Shown here: positions 48,444 through 64,000 of the stretch, one piece after another
Layout: each line of letters starts with the position of its first letter
How positions within the stretch are numbered: the first letter of the stretch is position 1
NCBI GenBank assembly: GCA_023228465.1
Contig: JALOBC010000015.1
Location: forward strand, 1-64,000
DNA: 64,000 nt
Direction of reading: 5' to 3'
Origin: Dokdonella sp.
GTDB lineage: Bacteria; Pseudomonadota; Gammaproteobacteria; Xanthomonadales; Rhodanobacteraceae
Program-made: the position numbers and the translations under genes
Notes under the pieces: model-generated
What the model was told of the DNA's origin: nothing
Seen by the model: only the letters and a program-made list of their open reading frames with translations
The model's database searches: none

Positions 48444-50027
48444 TTACCCCCTCTTCAACGCCTGCCGCAGGGGATCCAGCAACGCGCCATAGCGCGGCGC
48501 ACGTGCCGTATCGCGGCGAATGGGCTGGCGCACCTGGCTGGCGCTGGCGGTGCGCACGCTGCGTTCGGCTTCGAAGTAGCGCAGGCAGACGGGATCGAAG
48601 GGCAGGCCGCAGAACTCGAGCAGGGCGCGGGTTTCGCCTTCGGTGTCGGCCACCAGCGCTTCGTAGGACTGGCCGCGGATGTGTTCTGGATGGCGCGCCT
48701 GCCAGTGCTGCATGGTGTCCGCGTAGTCGTGATAGCAGGCAGCGAGGTCGCCAAGGTCGTAGCTGTATTCATGGCCGGCCCAGAAGATCTGGCGAAAGCA
48801 GGACAGGCAGGTTTCCACGGGGTCGCGACGGCAATCGATGATGTGCGCGCCGGGCAGCATGGCGCGGATGGCACCGACCAGCATCCAGTTGCCGGGCGTC
48901 TTGTCGGTGAAGCGCGGGCGTCGTTCGCGCCATTTCGCGGTGCGTGCCAGGTACGCCTTACCGAGTCGCTGCCAGTCATCCGGCGTGGCCTCGCTCACCC
49001 AGGCCGGAAAGGGCCTGCCGCGGCGGCGCGATTCCTCGCCGATCAGCATGCCAAGGTCGGTCAGTTCGCTGCCGCCCTCGACCTGCGGATGGGCGGCGAG
49101 AATCTGCTCGGTGAGCGTTGAACCCGAGCGCGGCAGGCTGACGACGAAGATGACTTCGCCACCGAGGGCGGCATCCGGCGCGCCGGCCACCGGGCCATCG
49201 AAGCTGGCGCGCATCGCGCCGACCCAGGCGCGGAAGGCCGCGGCATTCCACGGGAAGCGCTGGCGTCCGAGCCGGTTCGCGGCGAGGTAGGCAGCAAAGG
49301 CGTCGGCGTGACGGTCGGCATCTTCCAACGCCTTGGCATGGGCGAACCCAAGGCCAATGCGCTCGTCCAGCGGCAATTCGCCGTGCCCACAGGCGGCCTC
49401 GAGCGCGGCCAGATCAGCCGCTCCGAAACGCACCGCCTTGAGGTTGGCCAGACCCCACCAGGCGTGGCCCGAAAGCGGCGAAGCGGCCAGCACCTGGCGA
49501 TACTGCGCTGCGGCAGCGTCGCTGCGCCCCAGCATCATCAGGGATTCGGCCAGCAGGAAGCGCGCCGACTGCATGCCCGGCTCCAGCGCCAGTGCCTGTT
49601 CCAGCGGTGCCAGCGACTCATCCAGCCTGGCCTGCAGCTGCAGCAGTTTGCCAAGGTTGTACCAGCCGCCTGCCGAGTGTGGTGCGAGCGTGCAGGACTG
49701 GCGCAGGGCAGCCTCGGCGGCGCCATGCTCGCCGGCATCGGCGAGCACGCCGCCGAGCTGCGCCAGGATCGCCGGATCGCGCGGGCGCAGGATCGCCGCG
49801 CGGCGCAAGGCGGTCGCGGCTTCGCCCGAACGCCCCAGGGCCGCCAGCGACAGGGCGTGTGCGCACAGCAGCTGTGGATCGTCTGGCACGGCACGCCGGG
49901 CCGCAGCGAAACAGCGCTCGGCGCTGAGCGGATCACGCTCGGCAAGTTTTTGCCGGCCGAGCCGGAACTGGCGCAGGGCCTCCGCCGCCGCAGGCGTGGC
50001 GGGAAATCGGGCGTCTTGCTCGGACAT
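48444..50027 (-). CDS. TPR-repeat sulfotransferase family protein
   Basis: A 527-residue protein in two parts. Residues 1-220 are tetratricopeptide repeats (RQKLAERDPLSAERCFAAAR, LAQLGGVLADAGEHGAAEAA, WYNLGKLLQLQARLDESLAP). Residues from about 270 form a sulfotransferase domain with the PAPS 5'-phosphosulfate loop VSLPRSGSTLTEQIL and the 3'-phosphate region CRRDPVETCLSCF. Similar fusions are frequent in proteobacteria; acceptors are unknown. The start MSEQDARFPATP is preferred because the 28 codons before it are unlike the family. Divergent from glmU. Confidence 0.88.
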   Translation of the reverse strand: MSEQDARFPATPAAAEALRQFRLGRQKLAERDPLSAERCFAAARRAVPDDPQLLCAHALSLAALGRSGEAATALRRAAILRPRDPAILAQLGGVLADAGEHGAAEAALRQSCTLAPHSAGGWYNLGKLLQLQARLDESLAPLEQALALEPGMQSARFLLAESLMMLGRSDAAAAQYRQVLAASPLSGHAWWGLANLKAVRFGAADLAALEAACGHGELPLDERIGLGFAHAKALEDADRHADAFAAYLAANRLGRQRFPWNAAAFRAWVGAMRASFDGPVAGAPDAALGGEVIFVVSLPRSGSTLTEQILAAHPQVEGGSELTDLGMLIGEESRRRGRPFPAWVSEATPDDWQRLGKAYLARTAKWRERRPRFTDKTPGNWMLVGAIRAMLPGAHIIDCRRDPVETCLSCFRQIFWAGHEYSYDLGDLAACYHDYADTMQHWQARHPEHIRGQSYEALVADTEGETRALLEFCGLPFDPVCLRYFEAERSVRTASASQVRQPIRRDTARAPRYGALLDPLRQALKRG

Positions 50028-51693: not shown

Positions 51694-53004
51694 ATGAGCC
51701 TGCTGGAACCTGCAATGGAAGCACCCCTGCCCATCCTCGATGACGCACAGCTTGCGGTCATCGGCCTAGGCTACGTCGGCCTGCCGCTCGCGGTCGGCTT
51801 CGGCCGCCAGTTGCCGACACTCGGCTTCGACGTGAACGCCGCGCGCATCGACGAACTGCGCGCGCACCGCGACCACACGCTGGAGGTGAACGCCGAAGAA
51901 CTGGCGCAGGCGCAGCACCTGCGCTTTGCCACCGATCCGGCCGAGCTGGCGCGCTGCAATGTGTTCATCGTCACCGTGCCGACGCCGATCGATGCCGCCA
52001 AGCGACCGGATCTTTCCCCGCTGGAAGCGGCCAGCCGCACGGTCGGGCGCGCCATGCGCCGCGGCGACGTGGTGGTGTATGAATCCACCGTCTATCCGGG
52101 CGCGACCGAGGAAGTGTGCGTCCCCATCATCGAACGCGAATCGGGGCTCAGGTACCGGATCGATTTCCATGTCGGCTACAGCCCGGAACGCATCAACCCC
52201 GGCGATCGGGAGCATCGCCTGGAGTCCATCCTCAAGATCACTTCCGGTTCCAGCCCGGCAGCCGCCGATTTCGTCGACGCGCTATACCGCAAGGTGGTCA
52301 GGGCCGGCACCCACAAGGCGTCCAGCATCCGCGTGGCCGAAGCGGCCAAGGTCATCGAGAACACCCAGCGCGATCTTAATATCGCCCTGGTCAACGAACT
52401 GGCACTGATCTTCCATCGCCTCGGCATCGACACCGCCGAGGTGCTGGCTGCGGCCGGTACCAAATGGAACTTCCTACCCTTTCGCCCCGGGCTGGTCGGC
52501 GGCCACTGCATCGGCGTGGATCCGTACTACCTGACCCACAAGGCGCAGCAGATCGGCTACCACCCGGAAGTGATCCTGTCCGGCCGTCGCATCAACGACG
52601 GCATGGGCGAGCATGTGGCGCAGCGCGTGATCAAGCTGATGACCCAGCACTGCATCCAGGTGGTCGACTCGAACATCCTCGTCCTCGGCCTGGCCTTCAA
52701 GGAGAACTGCCCCGACCTGCGCAACACGCGCGTGATGGACGTGATCAACGAGTTCGCCAGCTACCGCGCCAACATCGACGTGTATGACCCCTGGGTCGAT
52801 GCGGCCGCGGCCGAACGCGAGTACGGCATCCGCCTCATTCCCGAACTGGCACCCGATCACTACGACGCGATCGTGCTCGCGGTCGCGCACCGGCAGTTCC
52901 TCACCCTGGGCGCGCGCGGCATCCGCGCGCTGGGGCGCCCGGGTTGCGTGGTATTCGACGTCAAGCAGGCGCTGCCACGCAGCGAAGTGGACGACCGCCT
53001 CTGA
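51694..53004 (+). CDS. UDP-N-acetylhexosamine 6-dehydrogenase (TviB/WbpO type)
   Basis: A 436-residue nucleotide-sugar dehydrogenase that oxidises a UDP-HexNAc at C6 to the uronic acid in two NAD-dependent steps. The N-terminal Rossmann motif is [17 protein letters not shown]. The family block [19 protein letters not shown] and the substrate-binding [10 protein letters not shown] follow. The nucleophile Cys lies in [17 protein letters not shown], and the central region is [17 protein letters not shown]. The closest types are TviB, WbpO and WbpA, which feed capsule or O-antigen synthesis; UDP-GlcNAc from GlmU is a plausible precursor. Alternatives are UDP-ManNAc dehydrogenases. Confidence 0.88.
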
Positions 53005-53154: not shown

Positions 53155-54078
53155 ATGGACGGGGAATCTCGTGCGCTGATCGACCTCGATTGGGATCGCT
53201 TCCACCCGTGGCGCATCCAGCCAGTGCGCCATCGCCTGGCTGCGCATCCATTGCTGCAACCGGCGCAACTGGTGGAACTTGGCAAGCGGCTGGAACGGCT
53301 TGGGCGGGTGCGCACCCACAGCGACGACGCCACTCCGGGGACCTCCTTCAACGCCGCGCCGCGCCTGCACCCGCACCGCAAGTCGGCGGCGGAAACGCTG
53401 GCCGACATCCACGCGGCGCGCGCCTGGATGTCCCTGCTCAACGTGCAGGCCGATCCGGTCTATCGCGCCCTGGTCGATGCGGTGCTGGACGATATCAGGC
53501 CCAGCGTGGAGCGCAGCGACCCGGGCATGTGCTATCGCGGTGGCTGGATCTTCGTCACCTCGCCGCGCACGGTGACCCCCTTCCACTTCGACAAGGAGCA
53601 CAACTTCATCCTGCAGGTGCAGGGGCGCAAGACGCTCTACGTCTGGGACCACCGCGACACCGAGGCCGCCAGCGAACGCGCACGTGACCGTTTCCACGCC
53701 ACCCACGAGCGCGACCTGCTGGTCTGGCGCGAGGAACTGCGCGAGCGCGCGCAGGTCTTCCACCTGGAGCCCGGCCAGGGCGCCTACATGCCATCCACCA
53801 GTCCACACATGGTGGAGAACGGCGACGGCCCCTCGATCACCATGAGCTTCACCTACTACACCCACGCGACCCGTCGTGACAGCGCGCTGCACAGCCTGCA
53901 CGAACGCCTGCGCGGGCTTGGCATCGCCCTGGCCCCGGTCGGCCATCGACCGGCGGTGGACGCCATGCTCCATCACGTCGGAGGCAGCGTGCGGGCGGTA
54001 CGCCACGTGCTGCGCAAGCTGGCCGGGCGCCCGGTCTTCCCCACCAGCGCACCCTACGCCTTCACGGAAACCTACTGA
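53155..54078 (+). CDS. Cupin-like (JmjC-type) putative Fe(II)/2-oxoglutarate oxygenase
   Basis: A 307-residue protein. The central jelly roll has the metal motif TPFHFDKEHNFILQVQGRK (HxD pair) and the distal His in MPSTSPHMVENGDGPSITMS, as in JmjC-like cupin hydroxylases. Residues 1-110 have no assigned domain, and the C-terminus is helical and basic (VRAVRHVLRKLAGRP). It may be a hydroxylase acting on a protein or a peptide precursor. It sits on the same strand between a UDP-sugar dehydrogenase and the NRPS-PKS genes, so a tailoring role is possible but unproven. Confidence 0.7.
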   Translation: MDGESRALIDLDWDRFHPWRIQPVRHRLAAHPLLQPAQLVELGKRLERLGRVRTHSDDATPGTSFNAAPRLHPHRKSAAETLADIHAARAWMSLLNVQADPVYRALVDAVLDDIRPSVERSDPGMCYRGGWIFVTSPRTVTPFHFDKEHNFILQVQGRKTLYVWDHRDTEAASERARDRFHATHERDLLVWREELRERAQVFHLEPGQGAYMPSTSPHMVENGDGPSITMSFTYYTHATRRDSALHSLHERLRGLGIALAPVGHRPAVDAMLHHVGGSVRAVRHVLRKLAGRPVFPTSAPYAFTETY

Positions 54079-54238: not shown

Positions 54239-54394
54239 ATGTACGGACCAGCATGCGATGCCGAGATTATCCGGGGCGGATTCGCGGCCTCTGGACGGCA
54301 CGTCGTCCGATTCCGCCCAGTCGTCCCACCCGCGCCGAGGGGGGGACAGGCTTGCATTTGCAGGCGTGCCCTGTCAGCCAATGACCCGATGTGA
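54239..54394 (+). CDS. Small ORF overlapping the start of the NRPS-PKS gene
   Basis: A 51-codon frame whose ATG has the best ribosome site in the region (GGGGAGGG, five bases from the end of GGAGG to the ATG). It encodes a basic, Pro/Arg/Gly-rich peptide beginning [15 protein letters not shown] and ending SANDPM, with three Cys residues. It reads 14 bases into the synthetase gene, so it could couple translation or act as a leader peptide. No similarity is recognised and it may be non-coding. Confidence 0.35.
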
Positions 54395-57300
54395 CCCGCC
54401 TGCGCACGCCCTCGCCATCCGCCTGGACGACGTGCTGCCCCGCCAACCGGCGGCCAGCCCGACCCGCGCGCCACCGGCGACTGCGCTTGCCCTGGGCGCA
54501 GCGCAATTGGCAGCACTCGCCACGCGCGCCCGCCGGCTCGGCCTGACGCCGGCGGATCTTGGTCGCGCGGCCCTGGTGCTCACCGAGGCGCGCCTGACCG
54601 GCAACGCCCAGATCGCAACGGCCGATGGCGGCGCCCTGCCAGTGCCCGCCGCGGGCGCCCTGGATGCGTGGCTGGCCAGCACGCTCGGGGCCGACCAGGC
54701 CGCGGCGCCGCTCGCCGCGGGTGCCTGGCTGGCCGACGCGCGCGCCGCGCAGGCCGCGCTGGCCGAAACACGCTTCGCCTGGTGGCTGGACGAAGCCGGC
54801 CTGCACGGCCGCGCCCGCGATGGCGCCGACGCAGACGCCCTGCGCATCCTGGCCAGGGCCCTGGCCAATGTCCTGAGCGGCCTGGCGGATGCGTCCACCC
54901 TGGAAGAGGTGTCGGCCCTCGATGCCGCGACGCGGCAGCGCCTGTTGCACGACTGGAACGCGACCGCCGTCGCGCGCCGTCCCGACGACAGCATTCATGG
55001 CCTTTTTGCCGAGGTCGCCGCGCGCTGCCCGCAACGCATTGCCATCATCGATGGCGACACGCGCATCGACTACGCCACGCTCGCGCGCCGGGCCGACGAT
55101 ATCGCGCACGCGCTCGCCGCCCACGGCGCCGCGCCAGGCGAGGTGGTGGCCGTGCTGCTGGATCGCTCGGCCGAGGCGCTCGCCGTGCTGCTCGGCATCC
55201 TGCGTGCCGGCGCGGCCTACCTGCCACTCGATCGCAAGCATCCGGCCGAACGCCTCGCCGCCACCCTGGCCGATGCCGGCGTCCGCCTGGTGATCGCGCA
55301 GCAGGACGCTCCGGCCGCCGCGGCCTGCGCGGCAACCCGGCTGCTGGCGCTGGAGGACCTCCACGCCGCGGCTGCAGTCGGCGCACTGCCACCGCCCGTC
55401 ACCGGCGCCGCGCCTGCCTATGTGATGTACACCTCCGGCTCCACCGGCACCCCCAAGGGCGTGGTGGTGCCGCACCGCGCCGTCATCCGCCTGGTGCGCG
55501 ACGTGGACTATGTCGATTTCGGCACGGCGCCCTGCCTGCTGCACGCCGCGCCGCTGGGTTTCGATGCCGCCACCTTCGAGATCTGGGGCGCGCTGCTGAA
55601 CGGCGGCACGCTGGTCGTGCACCGCGAGTCCATCCCGACCGGCGCCGCGCTCGCCGCCACCATCGCGCACGGCGGGGTGCGCATTGCCTGGCTGACGGCG
55701 GCGCTGTTCAACGCCATCGTGGATGACGATCCGCAGCACCTGGCCGGGCTCCACCAGCTGCTGATCGGTGGCGAGGCCCTGTCCGTGCCGCACGTGCGCA
55801 AGGCGTTGTCCGCCCTGCCCGACACCACCCTCATCAACGGCTACGGCCCGACCGAGTGCACCACGTTCGCGGCCACCTACCGCATTCCGCGCGACCTTGC
55901 GGCCGATGCGCCGTCGATTCCGCTCGGCCGCCCCATCGCCAATACCCGCCTGTACGTGCTCAATGCACGCGCCGAGCTGGTGCCGCCCGGCGTGCGCGGC
56001 GAACTTTACATTGGCGGCGAGGGCGTTGCGCTGGGCTACCTGGAGCGTCCGCAACTGAACGCCGAACGCTTCCTGGCCGATCCGTACGGCACGCCCGGCG
56101 CACGCATGTACCGCAGCGGCGACCAGGTGCGCTGGCAGGAAGATGGCACGCTGGAATTCGTCGGCCGCAGCGACGGGCAGGTCAAGATCCGCGGCTTCCG
56201 CATCGAGACCGGCGAAATCGAGGCAGCCCTCAAGCGCCACCCGGCGGTGCGCGATGCCGCGGTGGTGGCGCGCGAGGATCAGCCCGGCCGCAGGCGCCTG
56301 GTGGCCTATTTCGTAGCGGCCGCGCCGGTCGAGCCGCCCGCCCTGCGCGCCGCGCTCGCGCGCCACCTGCCCGAGTTCATGGTGCCGGCGCTTTACCTGC
56401 GCCTGGACCACCTGCCGGTCACGCCAAATGGCAAGCTCGACCGCCGCGCCCTGCCCGTACCCGAGCGGCGCCGGCCGGAGCTTGCCGTCGACTTTGCGCC
56501 ACCGCGCGGCAACGCCGAACAGCGCGTCGCCGCGATTTTCGCCGACCTCACCGGCGTCGAAGCGGTCGGCCGCGACGACAACTTCTTCGAACTGGGCGGC
56601 GATTCGCTGCTCGCGCTCAAGGCAATGGCCGAAATCGATGCCGGCCCGGCACTCGGCATCGCCGACTTCTTCGCCGGACCCACCGCCGCCGGCATCGTCG
56701 CGCTGCTGGAACGCGCTGGCCCGACCGCCGCCGCCGCTGAACCCGGGCGCCCGCCCCCGGCCAACGCAAGCCAGGAACCGATCGCCATCATCGCCATGGC
56801 CGGCCGCTTCCCCGGCGCCAGCGACGTCGAGACCTTCTGGGACAACCTGTGCGCGGGCCGCGATTCGATCCGCTTCTTCGCCCCGGACGAACTCGATCCC
56901 GCCATCCCCGCCGCGCAGCGCGACGATCCCGCGTATGTGCGCGCCCGCGGCGTGCTCGAGGACGTGGCCGGGTTCGATGCCGCCTTCTTCGGCATCACTC
57001 CGCGCGAAGCGGACCTGATGGACCCGCAGCAGCGCATCTTCCTGGAGCTTTGCTGGGAATGTTGCGAGCGCGCCGGCGAGGTGCCGGGACGCGGCGCCCC
57101 GGTCGGCGTGTTCGCCGGCATGTACAACGCGACCTACTTCCAGCAGCAGGTCAGCCGTCGCCCCGACCTGGTCGCCAAGTTCGGCGCCTTCCAGGTAATG
57201 CTGGACAACGAGAAGGACTACATCGCCACGCGTGTGGCGCACAAGCTGGATTTCACCGGTCCGGCCATCAGCGTGCACACCGCCTGCTCGACCTCGCTGG

Positions 57301-60300
57301 TGGCGATCTGCCAGGCCGTGGACGCCTTGCGCGCGGGCCACTGCACGATGGCGCTGGCCGGCGGCGTGGCCGTCACCTGTCCGCCGGCCAGCGGCTACCT
57401 CTACCAGGAAGGCGGCATGCTCTCGCCCGACGGTCACACGCGCAGCTTCGCCGCCGATGCGCAGGGCACGGTGTTCAGCGACGGCGCGGCGGTGGTGCTG
57501 CTCAAGCCGCTCGCCCAGGCGTTGGCCGACGGCAACCCGGTGCATGCGCTGATCCGCGGCGGCGCCGTGAACAATGATGGCGGCGGCAAGGCCAGCTTCA
57601 CCGCTCCCAGCAGCAGCGGCCAGGCGCAGGTGATCGAGCGCGCCCTGGCTGCGGCCGGCGTGCACGCGCGCTCGATTTCCTACATCGAGACGCATGGCAC
57701 CGCCACGCCACTTGGCGACCCGATCGAGATCGAGGGGCTGACCCGCGCCTTCCGCCGCGATACCACGGCCACCGGCTTCTGTGCCATCGGCTCGGTGAAG
57801 AGCAACATCGGCCACACGGTCATCGCCGCGGGCGCGACCGGCGTCATCAAGACCGCGCTGGCGCTGGCCGAACACCGCCTGCCGCCGACGCTGCATGTCG
57901 CGGCAACGAATCCCGCCATCGACTTCGCCCAGTCGCCCTTCGTGCCCAATCGCGAGTTGCGCGCATGGACCAGCAGCGACGGCACGCCGCTGCGCGCCGG
58001 CGTCAGTTCGTTCGGTGTCGGCGGTACCAACGCGCACCTCATCTTGGAGGAAATGCCCGCGCGGCCGGCCACGCAAACCGGCGCAGGTCCGCACGTGCTG
58101 CTGCTCTCCGCGCGCACGCCGACCGCCCTCGCCGCGATCCGCGCGAACCTCGCCCGCCACCTGGCGGCGCACCCGGACAGCCATCTCGCCGATGTGGCCT
58201 GGACGCTCGCCACCGGTCGCAAGGCCTTCGCCCTGCGCAGCGCAGTGGTGGCCGCCGACGCTGCGGCTGCAGTGGCCGCCCTGGGCGCCGCGGCGGCGCC
58301 ACGCACCGCCCAGCCAGGCAGCGGCACCGTCTTCATGTTCCCCGGCCAGGGCGCGCAGTACGCCGGCATGGGTCGCGCCCTGTACGCTGCCGAACCGGTG
58401 TTCCGCGATGCGCTGGATACCTGCGCCGAGCGCCTCGCCGGCATGCTCGGCTTCGACCTGCGCGAGCGCCTGTTCGCGGACGATGCCGCGGCGCTGCGCG
58501 AAACCGCACTCACCCAGCCGGCGACCTTCGCTATCGAATATGCGCTGGCGCAGTTGTGGCTGGACGTCGGCCTGCGCCCGGACGCGCTGGTCGGACACAG
58601 CATCGGCGAGTTCGTCGCCGCGGTGCTGGCCGGGGTGATGAGCCTGGACGACGGCTTGCACCTGATCGCCCTGCGCGGACGGCTGATGCAGGCGCTGCCC
58701 GCTGGCGCGATGCTATCGGTGCGCCTGGATGCCGCGACCCTCGCCGCGCGCCTGGCGCCGCCACTCTCGCTCGCGGTCGAGAATGCGCCCGACGCCTGCG
58801 TGGTCGCCGGCCCCCTTGCCGCGGTGGAGACCCTGCGCATCGCGCTCGAGTCCGACGCCATCGCCTGCCGCAGGCTGCCCACTTCGCATGCCTTCCACTC
58901 GGCCATGATGGACCCGGTGGTCGCGCCGCTGCGCGAGGCGGTGGCCCACGTGGCGCTGGCCGCGCCGAGCATCCCGATCATCTCGACGCGCACCGGCGCA
59001 TTGCTCGGCGACGCGCAGGCGACCTCGCCCGGGCATTGGGCCGACCACGCGCGCGACTGCGTGCAGTTTGCACGCGCGCTGGCCAGCCTGCACGCGCGCG
59101 ACCCCGACGCCGTGCTGCTGGAAGTGGGGCCGCGCGCCACCCTGACCCGGCTGGCGCACCGGCAACCGGGGCGTCCGCGCGCGGCCATCGCCTCGCTCGG
59201 CGACCAGGTCGCAGACGAGGTGCTGGCCTGGCGGCAAGCCGCCGGGGCCGCCTGGTGCGCGGGCGCGGCGCTCGACTTCACGCGCCTGGACCGGCGCGCA
59301 CACCGGCAGCTGCTGCGCCTGCCCAGCTATCCCTTCGAGCATGTGCGCCACTGGATCGATGCGCCCATCGATGCGCCCGCCGATGCGGCACCCACGTCCC
59401 GGGTCGGCGCGCCGCCACCGTTGCCGATCGCCCCACCGGAAACCGCCATGTCAACCGCGCCCCCCACCCCTGCCCCGCCCGCCGCCGACCTGCGCCTGGC
59501 ACGCCTCCGCACCGAGCTGGCCGCGCTGATCGAGGACGTGGCCGGCATCGACGTGGGCGAAGCCCCGCCGCAGGCCGATTTCGTCACCCTGGGCCTGGAT
59601 TCCCTGGCCCTCACCCAGCTCGCGCTGCAGGCCAGCCGGGCCTTCGACCTCAAGCTCACGTTCCGCCAGCTGATGGAAGACCTCGATTCGCCCGAGAGGC
59701 TCGCCATGCATATCGACCAGAACCTGCCCCCCGAGGCGGCCACGCCCGGCCCGCCGACGCCTGCAAGCACCGCGCCTGCGCCTGCCGCCACGCCCACGGC
59801 AACCGTGCCAGACGCGGCCGCCACGCCCGGCGGCGCCTTGCTGCGCGAGGTCATCGCCCAGCAGATGGCCTTGATGCAGCAGCAATTGGCGCTGCTGGGC
59901 GGCGCACCCGCCACCGCACCCGTTGCCCCACCCGCGGCCGCGACGACGCCAGCGGCTGCGCCAGCGCCCGCCGCGCCGCCGGCCACACCGGTCGCTGACG
60001 AGGAAGCCGCGTTGGCACACACGCGCTACGACGTCAGCAAGGCCTTCGGCGCGATCGCGCGCATCCATTCCAGCCGCGGCGAGGCGGGGGAACGCCAGCG
60101 CCTGCGCCTGGACGCCTTCATGCGCCGCTACCTGGAGCGCACGCGCAAGTCGCGTGAGTACACCGAGCAGCATCGACCACACCTGGCCGACCCGCGGGTG
60201 GTCACCGGCTTTCGACCGCAACTCAAGGAAATCACCTACCAGATCGTGGTCGAGCGCTCGCAGGGCGCGCACCTGTGGGACCTGGACGGCAACCGGTATG

Positions 60301-61568
60301 TCGATGCCCTGAACGGATTCGGCATGAACCTGTTCGGCTGGCAACCCGATTTCGTGCTGGACGCGGTGCGCCGCCAGCTCGACCTGGGCTACGAGATCGG
60401 CCCGCAGCATCCGCTGGCCGGCGAGGTGGCGCGGCTGGTGTGCGAGCTCACCGGCTTCGAGCGCGCGGCGCTGTGCAACACCGGCTCGGAAGCGGTGATG
60501 GGCACGGTACGCATCGCGCGCACCGTGACCGGCCGCGAGACCCTGGTGATCTTCAGCGGCGCCTATCACGGCATCTTCGACGAGGTGATCGTGCGCGGCA
60601 CGCGCAAACTACATTCGGTGCCGGCCGCGCCCGGCATCCTGCGCAATACCGCCGAGCACGTGCTGGTGCTGGACTACGGCGACCCGGCGTCGCTGGACAT
60701 CATCCGCCAGCGCGCCGGCGAGATCGCCGCGGTGCTGGTCGAGCCGGTGCAGAGCCGGCGCCCGGACCTGCAACCGCGCGAGTTCCTGCAGGAACTGCGC
60801 CGCATCACGGCCGCCTCCGGCAGCCTGCTGATCTTCGACGAGGTGGTCACCGGCTTCCGCTCGCACCCGCGCGGCGCGCAGCACGTGTTCGGCGTGGATG
60901 CAGACCTCGCCTGCTATGGCAAGGTCGTCGGCGGCGGCATGCCGATCGGCGTGATCGCCGGCAAGCACGCGTACATGGACGCGCTCGACGGCGGCCAGTG
61001 GTCCTATGGCGATGATTCGGTGCCCACGGTCGGCGTCACCTACTTCGCCGGCACCTTCGTGCGCCATCCGCTCGCGCTGGCCGCCGCCCGCGCCGTGCTG
61101 GAACATCTCAAGCAGGCCGGGCCGGCGCTGCAGGAACGGCTGAACGCCCGTACCAGCGCCTTCGCCGACGAACTCAATGGCGTGTGCCGCGCGGCCGGTG
61201 CGCCGGTGGCCATCACGCACTTCGCCTCGCTCTGGCGCATCGGCTTCAGCGAAGACCACCCGCTGCAGGACCTGCTGTTCGCCATGATGCGCAGCCGTGG
61301 CATCCACATCCTCGACCATTTCCCCTGCTTCTTTACTACCGCGCACGCGGAACAGGACTACGTCGCCATCGTCAACGCGTTCCGCGATTCGCTGGCGGAA
61401 TTGCAGGCCTCGGACTTCCTGCCGCGCCGGGTGGTGGCCGCGCCCGAACTGGACGCCAGCAGGCCACCGATGCCGGGCGCCCGGATCGGCCGTGACGCCG
61501 ACGGCAACCCGGCCTGGTTCGTGCCCAATCCCGACCAGCCCGGCAAGTTCCAGAGGATCGGGGCATGA
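54381..61568 (+). CDS. Hybrid NRPS-PKS synthetase: A-T-KS-AT-T-aminotransferase
   Basis: A 2395-residue assembly-line protein. Residues 1-190 are a degenerate condensation-like stub without HHxxxDG. The A domain (about 195-690) has [11 protein letters not shown] and NGYGPTE, with pocket residues D-A-F-W-L-G-G-T-F-K, a valine code. Carrier protein 1 has GGDSL (Ser742). KS (799-1225) has the full triad Cys969, His1105, His1145. AT (1317-1610) has GHSIGE (Ser1407) and HAFH (1503-1506), the malonyl type. Carrier protein 2 has GLDSL (Ser1741). An Ala/Pro linker precedes a class III aminotransferase (about 1880-2370) with PLP Lys2181 in [13 protein letters not shown]. There is no KR, DH or ER. The order resembles MycA/ItuA and McyE. 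The start may instead be an ATG at 54258. Its stop overlaps the next ATG by 4 bases. Confidence 0.95.
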
Positions 61569-64000
61569 ATGTACGCACGGAAGATCACCTGGTCGAAGTC
61601 GACTACGACCCGTTTGCCCAGGCGCCGCTGGCGCGGGTGGTGCCCTCCACCGAGGCGCAGCGGGAAATCTGGCTTGCCGCCAGCCTCGCAGCGGAGGCGT
61701 CGCTGGCCTACAACGAGTCGGCCACTCTGCACCTGCACGGCGCACTCGATGCGGCTGCGCTGCAGGCTGCGCTCACCACGCTGGTGGAACGCCACGAGGC
61801 CCTGCGTGCCACCGTCAGCGCGGATGGCCAACACCTGTGCATCGCCGAACCTGCGGCCTGCACCCTGACCATGCACGATCTTGCCGCGCTCGCGCCCGAC
61901 GCGCGCGAAGACGCCATCGCCGACACCCTGCAGCGCGCGGTCGCGACCCCGTTCGACCTCGAACGCGGCCCGCTGTTCGCTGCCGAACTGCTGCGCCTGG
62001 GCGCCGATGAACACATCCTGCTGCTCAATGCCCATCACATCATCTGCGATGGCTGGTCCTTCGGTGTGATCGTGCGCGAACTGGCGGCACTGTATGCCGC
62101 AGCGCACGAACGGCGCGCCGCAGCGCTGCCACCTGCCGATTCCTTTGCCGGCTTCGCGCTGGCCGCCAGCGCCGCATCCGCCACGACGCAGGCGCACGAA
62201 GACTACTGGCTGGCCCGCTTCAGCCCCCCGCCTGCGCCCCTGGAGCTGCCCCTGGATCGACCCCGCCCGCGGCAGCGCAATTTCGCCTCGCGGCGCATCG
62301 ATCACCACCTGGATGCGCCCCTGGTGACCCGCCTGCGCGCCGCCGGTGCCAGTCAGGGCGCCAGCCTGTATGCGGTCCTGCTGACCGCCTTCGGCACCTT
62401 GCTGCAGCGCCTGAGCGGCCAGGACGACCTGGTGGTCGGCGTGCCGGCCGCCGGACAGGCGACCAGCGGCGCGCGCGCACTGGTCGGCCATGCCGTCAAC
62501 GTGCTGCCGCTGCGCATGCGAGCGCAAGCGGCGATGCCCTTCGAGGCCCTGCTGCGCGAGGTGCGCGCGGATCTGCTGGATGCCTTCGACCACCCGCAGT
62601 ACACCTTCGGCACCCTGCTGCAACGGCTGGCCCTGCCGCGCGACCCCACGCGCCTGCCCCTGGTCGGCGTGCTGTTCAACCTGGATCAGGCCCTCGAACC
62701 GGGCAGCATCGACTTTGGCGGCCTCGACTTCGAGTTCGCCGGCGTGCCGCGCAGCCACGAGAACTTCGAACTGTTCATCAACGCGGTGCAGGCCGGCGGT
62801 GGCCTGCGCCTGGAATGCCAGTACAACACCGATCTTTTCGATGCCGCCACCATCGAGCGCTGGCTGGATGCCTACGCCACCCTGCTCGACGCACTGGTGG
62901 CGAACCCCCGGCAGACCCTGGCCGCCCTGCCCATCCTGTCGCCCCGCGAGCGTGCCGCGCTGGCCGCGCTGCAACCGGCACCGGCCCCGCGCGCGGCGGG
63001 CCGGCGCGTGGAGGCGCTGGTGTTTGCCCAGGCACGCCGCACGCCCGAACGCGTTGCCCTGCGCTGCGGCGGGCAGACCTGGACCTATGCCCAGCTCGCC
63101 GCGCGCGCCCGCGGCATCGCCGCGGCGCTTGGCGCCCGCGGCATCGGCGCCGGCGCCCTGGTCGGCATTGCCCTGGAGCGCGATCCCGACCTCGTCGCCG
63201 CCACGCTCGGCGTGCTCGCAGCCGGTGCCGGCTACGTGCCGCTCGATCCGGCCTTCCCCGCCGACCGGCTCGCCTACATGGCCACGGATGCGCAGCTCGC
63301 GCTGCTGCTGGCCGGGCCGCCGACCGCTGGCCGCTTCGACTGGCCGGCCGCACGCACCCTGCTGCTCGATGACCCGGCCATCCCGGCGGACGCGCCCGAC
63401 CTGCCACCGGCCCAGGGCGACGACGCCATCGCCTACGTCATCTACACGTCCGGTTCGACCGGCAAGCCCAAGGGCGTGTGCGTGCCGCAGGCAGCGGTCG
63501 TCAACTTCCTCCTTGCCATGCAGAGCGCGCCCGGCATCCAGCCGGACGACCGCCTGCTGGCGGTGACCACGCTGTCCTTCGACATCGCGGTGCTGGAACT
63601 CTTCCTGCCGCTCACCTGCGGGGCCACCGTGGTGCTGGCCAGCCACGGCGAAGCGCTGGACGGGCATGCGCTCGGCGCGCTGATCGAACGCCACGCGGTG
63701 ACCCTCATGCAGGCCACGCCGGCCAGCTGGCGCCTGCTGCTGGAAGCGGGCTGGCCGGGACGCGCGGGCCTGCGCGCCGTGTGCGGCGGCGAACCCCTGC
63801 CGCGCGACCTGGCCGAGGCCCTGCTGCAGCGCTGCGCTGCCCTGTGGAACCTGTACGGCCCCACCGAGACCACGGTCTGGTCGACCGCCTGGCGGGTGGA
63901 GGCGCCACAACGCGGCATCCGCATCGGCCGGCCGATCGACAACACCACGGTGTGGGTCCTCGATGCGCTGGATCAGCCCTGTCCGATCGGCGTGGCCGGC
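61565..64000 (+). CDS. Nonribosomal peptide synthetase: C-A..., partial at the window edge
   Basis: The first 812 residues of an NRPS that continues beyond the window. The condensation domain (about 25-450) begins [20 protein letters not shown] and has an intact HHIICDG (157-163). Its sequence ([38 protein letters not shown]) is the type that accepts polyketide or beta-amino acyl donors. The A domain (from about 475) has [11 protein letters not shown] (627-637) and [11 protein letters not shown]. Readable pocket residues are D-I-L-Q-V-G-L-V-W, nearest in my memory to glycine-type codes (D-I-L-Q-L-G-L-I-W-K), but this is weak. The ATG overlaps the previous stop codon by 4 bases (ATGA). Confidence 0.95.

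Follow-up and report, generated by a model that had tools for sequence, protein, structure and literature searches.

A hybrid synthase with a valine-type code and an in-line aminotransferase, predicted to form a diamino-acyl-glycyl chain, lies within an XrtA-like exopolysaccharide locus of Dokdonella sp.

The analyzed sequence, referred to below as the window, comprises the first 64,000 nucleotides of contig JALOBC010000015.1 of Dokdonella sp. (assembly GCA_023228465.1). It carries two open reading frames, ORF1 and the beginning of ORF2, that encode a hybrid nonribosomal peptide synthetase–polyketide synthase (NRPS-PKS) line, and these synthase genes lie inside an XrtA-like exopolysaccharide locus. 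The domains of ORF1 make it likely that a diamino-acyl unit is formed on the carrier of this protein. That ORF2 extends the unit to a diamino-acyl-glycyl chain, whatever the role of the chain in a glycan, is favoured by a smaller margin of confidence. A function of the product in the polysaccharide itself is possible, though we rate it somewhat below an even chance.

Domain organization of ORF1

ORF1 (54381..61568, plus strand, as are all features of the line described below) encodes a protein of 2395 amino acids (aa), in which translation and Pfam searches distinguished adenylation (A), carrier (T), ketosynthase (KS), acyltransferase (AT), carrier and aminotransferase domains, i.e. A-T-KS-AT-T-aminotransferase. 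An earlier in-frame ATG at 54258 would extend the protein to 2436 aa. The A domain (55005..56435; PF00501/PF13193) is followed by carrier domain T1 (56496..56735, outer limits approximate; Ser codon 56604), a KS (56775..58247; PF00109/PF02801/PF16197; active Cys codon 57285), an AT (58329..59174; PF00698), carrier domain T2 (59514..59711) and a class-III aminotransferase of the mycosubtilin MycA type (60093..61427, Pfam and PDB match; Lys codon 60921). The two stretches of the protein matched by the carrier model PF00550 are T1 and T2. The AT shows a GHSIG motif and a malonyl-type HAFH motif (codons 58887-58898), and the catalytic residues of the protein are intact. No ketoreductase was recognized by Pfam in ORF1 or ORF2; the rest of the genome was not searched for a trans-acting one. 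The original prediction, an earlier reading of the window, had proposed this domain order without a ketoreductase and a malonyl-type AT with HAFH, and both were confirmed. It had also placed the line at 54381..64000; ORF1 is real, but this end falls in the middle of ORF2, which reaches 66493.

The region ahead of the A domain retains a remnant of a condensation (C) domain, namely its C-terminal half (54468..54944; ORF1 residues 30-188, within the 200 residues preceding the A domain; hhalign 97.4%, E 1.5e-11, template columns 225-449 of 453). No HHxxxDG motif was seen in this remnant, and no capping domain was recognized at the start of the protein. The line therefore appears to begin at the A domain, and valine is taken to be loaded with a free amine.

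In all 75 complete non-duplicate sequences (including that of the window), the KS Cys/His/His residues, the AT Ser, the HAFH motif, both carrier Ser residues and the aminotransferase Lys and Asp are conserved. These counts are partly built in, because the relatives were fetched by six patterns drawn from the stretch between AT and aminotransferase; HAFH is contained in one pattern, and others lie within the aminotransferase.

The nearest PDB match of the ORF1 aminotransferase is MycA (6kfm, 409 bits), the best glutamate-1-semialdehyde aminomutase reaching 187 bits. MycA transaminates a beta-keto thioester derived from a fatty acid starter. In the mycosubtilin/iturin systems the homologous aminotransferase likewise follows KS-AT-T; however, MycA-type hybrids receive a fatty-acyl or aryl starter from an acyl ligase, whereas the window line has, by sequence, an NRPS A-T unit with a valine code. 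Judged by the known logic of these families, the best reading of the line is that valine would be loaded, extended by one malonate and aminated by in-line transamination of the beta-keto thioester, leaving 3,4-diamino-5-methylhexanoate on the ORF1 carrier, and that glycine would then be added by ORF2. The same diamino unit had been put forward in the original prediction; it fits the domains and the code best and is, as before, deduced from sequence.

Formation of statines by NRPS-PKS lines also involves an amino acid and one malonate. In statine synthases, exemplified by that of pepstatin (PMC12081711), the keto group is reduced to a hydroxyl, whereas the window line is predicted to aminate it. 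If so, the diamino acid would be a statine analogue with NH2 in place of OH that arises in line from a proteinogenic amino acid, and many natural variants of such a line would be at hand. We regard it as highly improbable that a ketoreductase acts in trans to give an ordinary statine, leaving the aminotransferase with some other task. Statine keto groups can indeed be reduced in trans, as is reported for pepstatin (PMC12081711), but no ketoreductase occurs in ORF1 or ORF2, none was recognized among the annotated conserved neighbour clusters (not all of which are annotated), and the aminotransferase Lys and Asp are kept in 75/75 sequences.

Substrate specificity codes

The A domain of ORF1 (A1) yielded the code DAFWLGGTFK by alignment, in agreement with the valine pocket read earlier. 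An identical code is printed for the valine domain of malacidin MlcM (table 7 of PMC9113097). In a 2025 survey (PMC12283262), DALWIGGTFK is among the commonest Leu/Ile/Val codes and is also given as a Val sequence. Loading of a residue other than valine (isoleucine, 2-aminobutyrate or a hydroxylated valine) seems unlikely. Such codes are predictions, and those of A1 differ among relatives: among 76 readings (two duplicates included) there were 47 of the valine type xGGTFK, 13 Pro-like, 3 Thr-like and 13 other codes. Against this stand the exact match to a printed valine code and the naming of DALWIGGTFK as a Val sequence. The first A domain of LgrA (PDB; a Val-Gly system) aligns but has a different pocket, which speaks neither for nor against valine. 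As far as motifs and codes can tell, malonate extension and transamination are constant across the family and the first residue is variable.

The A domain of ORF2 (A2) has the code DILQVGLVWK, which shows three differences, all conservative, from DILQLGMIWK, a code printed for glycine domains (PMC12283262). DILQLGMIWK itself was read in A2 of 5 of the 71 relatives. The A2 codes of 71 C-A-T proteins, to which some loci contribute more than one, comprise 39 of the DILQ glycine type and 32 others (10 DIMQ and 9 DMPQ among them).

ORF2, the terminal module and chain release

ORF2 starts at 61565, overlapping the end of ORF1 by 4 bases. The window holds its first 812 of 1642 aa (61565..64000, plus strand; Pfam and alignment), i.e. 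a C domain and most of A2. The original prediction had advised extending the sequence past 64 kb to find the remaining modules; on the same contig ORF2 indeed runs to 66493, adding T-C-T, so that the whole protein is C-A-T-C-T. No thioesterase was found by Pfam over this full length.

ORF2 would join the diamino-acyl unit to glycine, and the terminal C-T, lacking its own A domain in the window ORF2, would add or receive the final unit. The 48 non-duplicate ORF2s that contain two C domains (that of the window among them) comprise 25 with a deletion of the third A domain, 12 with a degenerate copy of it and 11 with an intact one, all 11 intact copies being of the DILQ type. By analogy with the latter, the final unit may be a second glycine, and we hypothesize that it is loaded in trans on the last carrier. 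The degenerate copies, which lie between intact copies and clean deletions in the relatives, were distinguished in 12 ORF2s (e.g. L034, 13111-19536, and 11 others) by failure to find the TSGS core and/or the NGK-type lysine motif.

Both C domains of all 48 two-C ORF2s contain HHxxxDG, and the terminal carrier motif is present in 47 of them; the C domain that follows ORF1 also keeps HHxxxDG in 22 of 23 one-C proteins. Retention of the motif in the following C domain suggests that the chain is passed on. This bears on a different fate of the ORF1 intermediate, in which the thioester of the extended valine is attacked by the free alpha-amine of the same chain, giving 4-amino-5-isopropylpyrrolidin-2-one, or a tetramic acid should transamination fail. 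Gamma-amino thioesters lactamise readily, and only the condensation remnant, with no recognized capping domain, precedes A1; with HHxxxDG kept downstream throughout the two-C ORF2s and in nearly all one-C proteins, we nevertheless consider a ring product decidedly unlikely.

The ORF2 tail is shorter than 60 residues in 45 of the 48 two-C proteins and thioesterase-sized in three. In many relatives a short basic, amphipathic-looking tail (LGGRLRxLFGRR-like, as judged by eye) follows the last carrier, and the C-terminus of the window ORF2 (contig C85, up to 66493) is likewise short, basic and possibly amphipathic. Among five alphaproteobacterial plasmids examined, four encode a separate final protein composed of C and T, with no A domain recognized, and one encodes a single long protein. 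Bacteroidota ORF2s are mostly C-A-T with a tail of 274-313 residues, which Pfam identified as a thioesterase in L109, the sole one tested.

Two alpha/beta hydrolase-related families, hydr1 and hydr2 (31 members each, duplicates included), are candidates for release. By the score of one representative each, they are relatives, not members, of TIGR03100 (hydr1, 67.9 bits; cut-off 168.45) and TIGR03101 (hydr2, 82.6 bits; cut-off 202.75). Alignment places a Cys at the nucleophile position of hydr1, together with a conserved His, in 31/31 sequences, and an Arg at that of hydr2 in 31/31, which makes hydr2 look like an inactive partner; a GxSxG regular expression is misleading for hydr2, and the position was read from the alignment. 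The predicted fold of hydr1 is that of a generic alpha/beta hydrolase (first match with a template modelling (TM) score of 0.63), with thioesterases among the first 20 matches and no specific function indicated. Both genes occur within 15 kb of the synthase in 14 of 22 Burkholderiales, 8 of 30 Xanthomonadales, 1 of 2 other and 0 of 22 Bacteroidota loci, and in 6 of 7 synthase-bearing genomes of the window's genus. We hypothesize that the chain is released by this Cys-type hydrolase pair, or else transferred to a partner by way of the short C-terminal tail.

In the window genome, hydr1/hydr2, a second cupin, a DnaJ-like gene and a gene of a family designated cluster 6, all of the presumed pathway, lie at the end of contig C37 (L133, 4707-12056). 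Contig C38 (L135) carries the start of the second cupin, which is thus split between the two contig ends, as well as a TIGR04325 methyltransferase-like gene and a GINT1-like gene. This layout is that of the related genome G007 minus the synthase. In the window genome, then, the synthase pair and one of the cupins are placed separately, inside the polysaccharide locus.

The exopolysaccharide locus

On the window contig, genes for a UDP-sugar dehydrogenase and a JmjC/cupin oxygenase precede ORF1 and ORF2. After these come, in this order, genes for a polysaccharide export protein, a chain-length determinant, a tyrosine kinase, an outer-membrane protein, a polysaccharide deacetylase, glycosyltransferases, an amidotransferase and a protein that weakly resembles O-antigen ligases. 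All genes of the locus were on one strand in the first gene call; with a later caller one minus-strand ORF replaces a glycosyltransferase. The neighbouring genes resemble those of XrtA/PEP-CTERM exopolysaccharide loci (TIGR03007, TIGR03018, TIGR03108, TIGR03013), with which relatives of the window line also share TIGR03100/TIGR03101-related hydrolases. The chain-length determinant scores above its XrtA cut-off (368.7 versus 278.85 bits). For the tyrosine kinase and the amidotransferase the best matches are again XrtA families, with scores below the cut-offs (TIGR03018, 159 versus 230.65 bits; TIGR03108, 622.9 versus 816.9 bits). The locus differs from XrtA/PEP-CTERM loci in containing the synthase gene pair and in that no exosortase (TIGR02602) was matched in any of 16 genomes of the genus; exosortase-dependent sorting was set aside on this ground.

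At least one polysaccharide marker was found within 15 kb of the synthase in 26 of 30 Xanthomonadales, 8 of 22 Burkholderiales, 0 of 2 other and 11 of 22 Bacteroidota loci, and in 7 of 7 synthase-bearing genomes of the window's genus (G009 and G007 among these seven are also counted with the Xanthomonadales, as L091 and L101). None of 20 arbitrary 20-kb pieces from four genus genomes contained such a marker, the pieces being shorter than the loci and labelled by BLAST, whereas the loci were labelled by clustering. These pieces held one GT4-like, one other glycosyltransferase-like (cluster 26) and one GINT1-like gene, two epimerase-like genes and one transferase of the phosphopantetheinyl transferase cluster.

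Linkage was examined in 37 genomes by measuring how far the synthase lies from the closest polysaccharide-export gene (PF02563) of its contig and setting the result against random placement. Such a gene occurs within 60 kb in 8 of 9 Xanthomonadales (0.40 expected) and 5 of 9 Burkholderiales (0.38 expected), together 13 of the 18 proteobacterial genomes, against 0.78 expected. Within the genus, all 7 genomes that have the synthase also have an XrtA determinant above the cut-off, versus 2 of the 9 that lack it; four of these nine are less than 90% complete. Plasmids provided a further sample: 1488 records contain an aminotransferase match, and of 10 viewed among the 25 listed, six clearly carry polysaccharide genes next to the synthase, namely those of Variovorax VAI-C, Rhizobium (two records), Rhodobacter, Aliiroseovarius and Loktanella.

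The presence of polysaccharide genes near many proteobacterial lines suggests that the product may have its function at the cell surface and not as a drug-like poison, and we hypothesize that it is used in or with the exopolysaccharide of the surrounding XrtA-like locus. The protease-inhibitor-like warhead proposed in the original prediction found no support in the annotated neighbourhoods. If the product is carried on the polysaccharide, NRPS-PKS machinery would be a route to cationic groups on bacterial surface glycans, and the product of such orphan hybrid clusters should be sought in the exopolysaccharide and not in the culture extract.

Several observations weigh against this reading of the line and its product. 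The linkage in Bacteroidota is not significant (3 of 19 genomes, 1.76 expected, simulated p 0.26), and the simulation treats genomes as independent, although relatives share gene order. Two of the nine genus genomes without the synthase keep the XrtA determinant. Four of the 10 plasmids viewed have no clear glycan context (one with a single glycosyltransferase, three with none). In the window genome hydr1/hydr2 are on another contig. Bacteroidota ORF2s with a thioesterase-sized tail make a soluble product likely there. The free gamma-amine of the chain could cyclise on the thioester. Finally, 32 of 71 A2 codes fall outside the DILQ glycine type, so glycine is not constant across the family; the reading of the window's own A2 domain, itself a prediction from its code, is not weakened by this.

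The product might instead be secreted as a free small peptide, such as 3,4-diamino-5-methylhexanoyl-Gly-Gly, and serve as a siderophore, signal or antibiotic, its gene neighbours being polysaccharide genes by inherited gene order only. We regard this as a serious, if minority, possibility. It accords with the thioesterase of L109, the absence of significant linkage in Bacteroidota and two Variovorax plasmid copies that have TolC/efflux or copper-oxidase genes in the stretch viewed. Less easily accommodated are the recurrence of the linkage in Xanthomonadales, Burkholderiales and alphaproteobacterial plasmids under different gene orders, and the 45 of 48 two-C ORF2s without a thioesterase-sized tail. 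A broader generalization of the glycan role is doubtful, i.e. that these lines form a widespread undescribed branch in which beta,gamma-diamino-acyl-glycyl groups are not free products but carrier-bound cationic exopolysaccharide decorations, passed on from the A-less terminal C-T by the Cys hydrolase/pseudo-hydrolase pair, with an A domain (Val, Pro, Thr, others) setting the side chain by lineage.

Distribution and prior record of the architecture

A scan of a genome collection with the AT-to-aminotransferase part gave at least 594 pattern matches, of which at least 585 were confirmed and 80 were kept: 30 from Xanthomonadales, 25 from Burkholderiales and their kin, 22 from Bacteroidota and 3 from other groups. 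Genes were called with a codon-model caller, and four of the 80 loci (L062, L072, L076 and L098), in which no core gene was obtained, were left out of the group counts. A-T-KS-AT-T-aminotransferase is encoded in a single ORF in 76 of the 80; the exceptions are L051, whose first carrier the search missed, L054 and L060, which are truncated at contig ends, and L098, which is split. One locus, L073, derives from a metagenome bin labelled Bordetella parapertussis, a label that may be misassigned.

The original prediction treated such lines as unseen. This does not hold, given the 76 shared architectures and an entry already in print: table 2 of Milano 2013 (PMC3870968) lists A-CP-KS-AT-CP-PLP1 for Pedobacter heparinus C6XWU5, with the predicted product Nrp-Mal-Gly-Pk, and related layouts for Thiorhodococcus drewsii G2E5C9 and Salinisphaera F7QBN5, in which this same series is joined by further domains. 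The architecture is thus on record as a table row and is neither unique nor a singleton. Glycine in the predicted P. heparinus product is as read for the window line. The parts of that paper covered here give predicted products only and do not mention polysaccharide genes. A search of the open PMC literature found no paper on the product of this architecture or on NRPS-PKS lines in exopolysaccharide loci; PMC5563371 and PMC12819058, in the parts covered, treat other clusters.

Other genes of the window and of related loci

Immediately upstream of ORF1 are genes for a UDP-glucose/GDP-mannose dehydrogenase family protein (51694..53004, plus strand; Pfam) and a JmjC/cupin-8 type Fe(II)/2-oxoglutarate oxygenase-like protein (53155..54078, plus strand; Pfam). 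The latter contains the motif H144-x-D146...H218, invariant across 25 sequences. Its predicted model (predicted local distance difference test score 94) matches the folds of the JmjC-type hydroxylases YxbC, FIH and NO66 with TM scores of 0.4-0.5, which does not tell the substrate.

Cluster 6 (e.g. L022, 3055-3738) comprises proteins of approximately 230-300 aa found with the synthase or the cupin in 21 loci or genomes; two representatives had no Pfam or NCBIfam match. In the window genome, a separate adenylation-domain gene (L134, 7092-9900, contig C88) stands beside the sole PF01648 phosphopantetheinyl transferase match of the genome. Upstream of the exopolysaccharide locus, the window encodes a tetratricopeptide-sulfotransferase protein on the minus strand (48444-49889).

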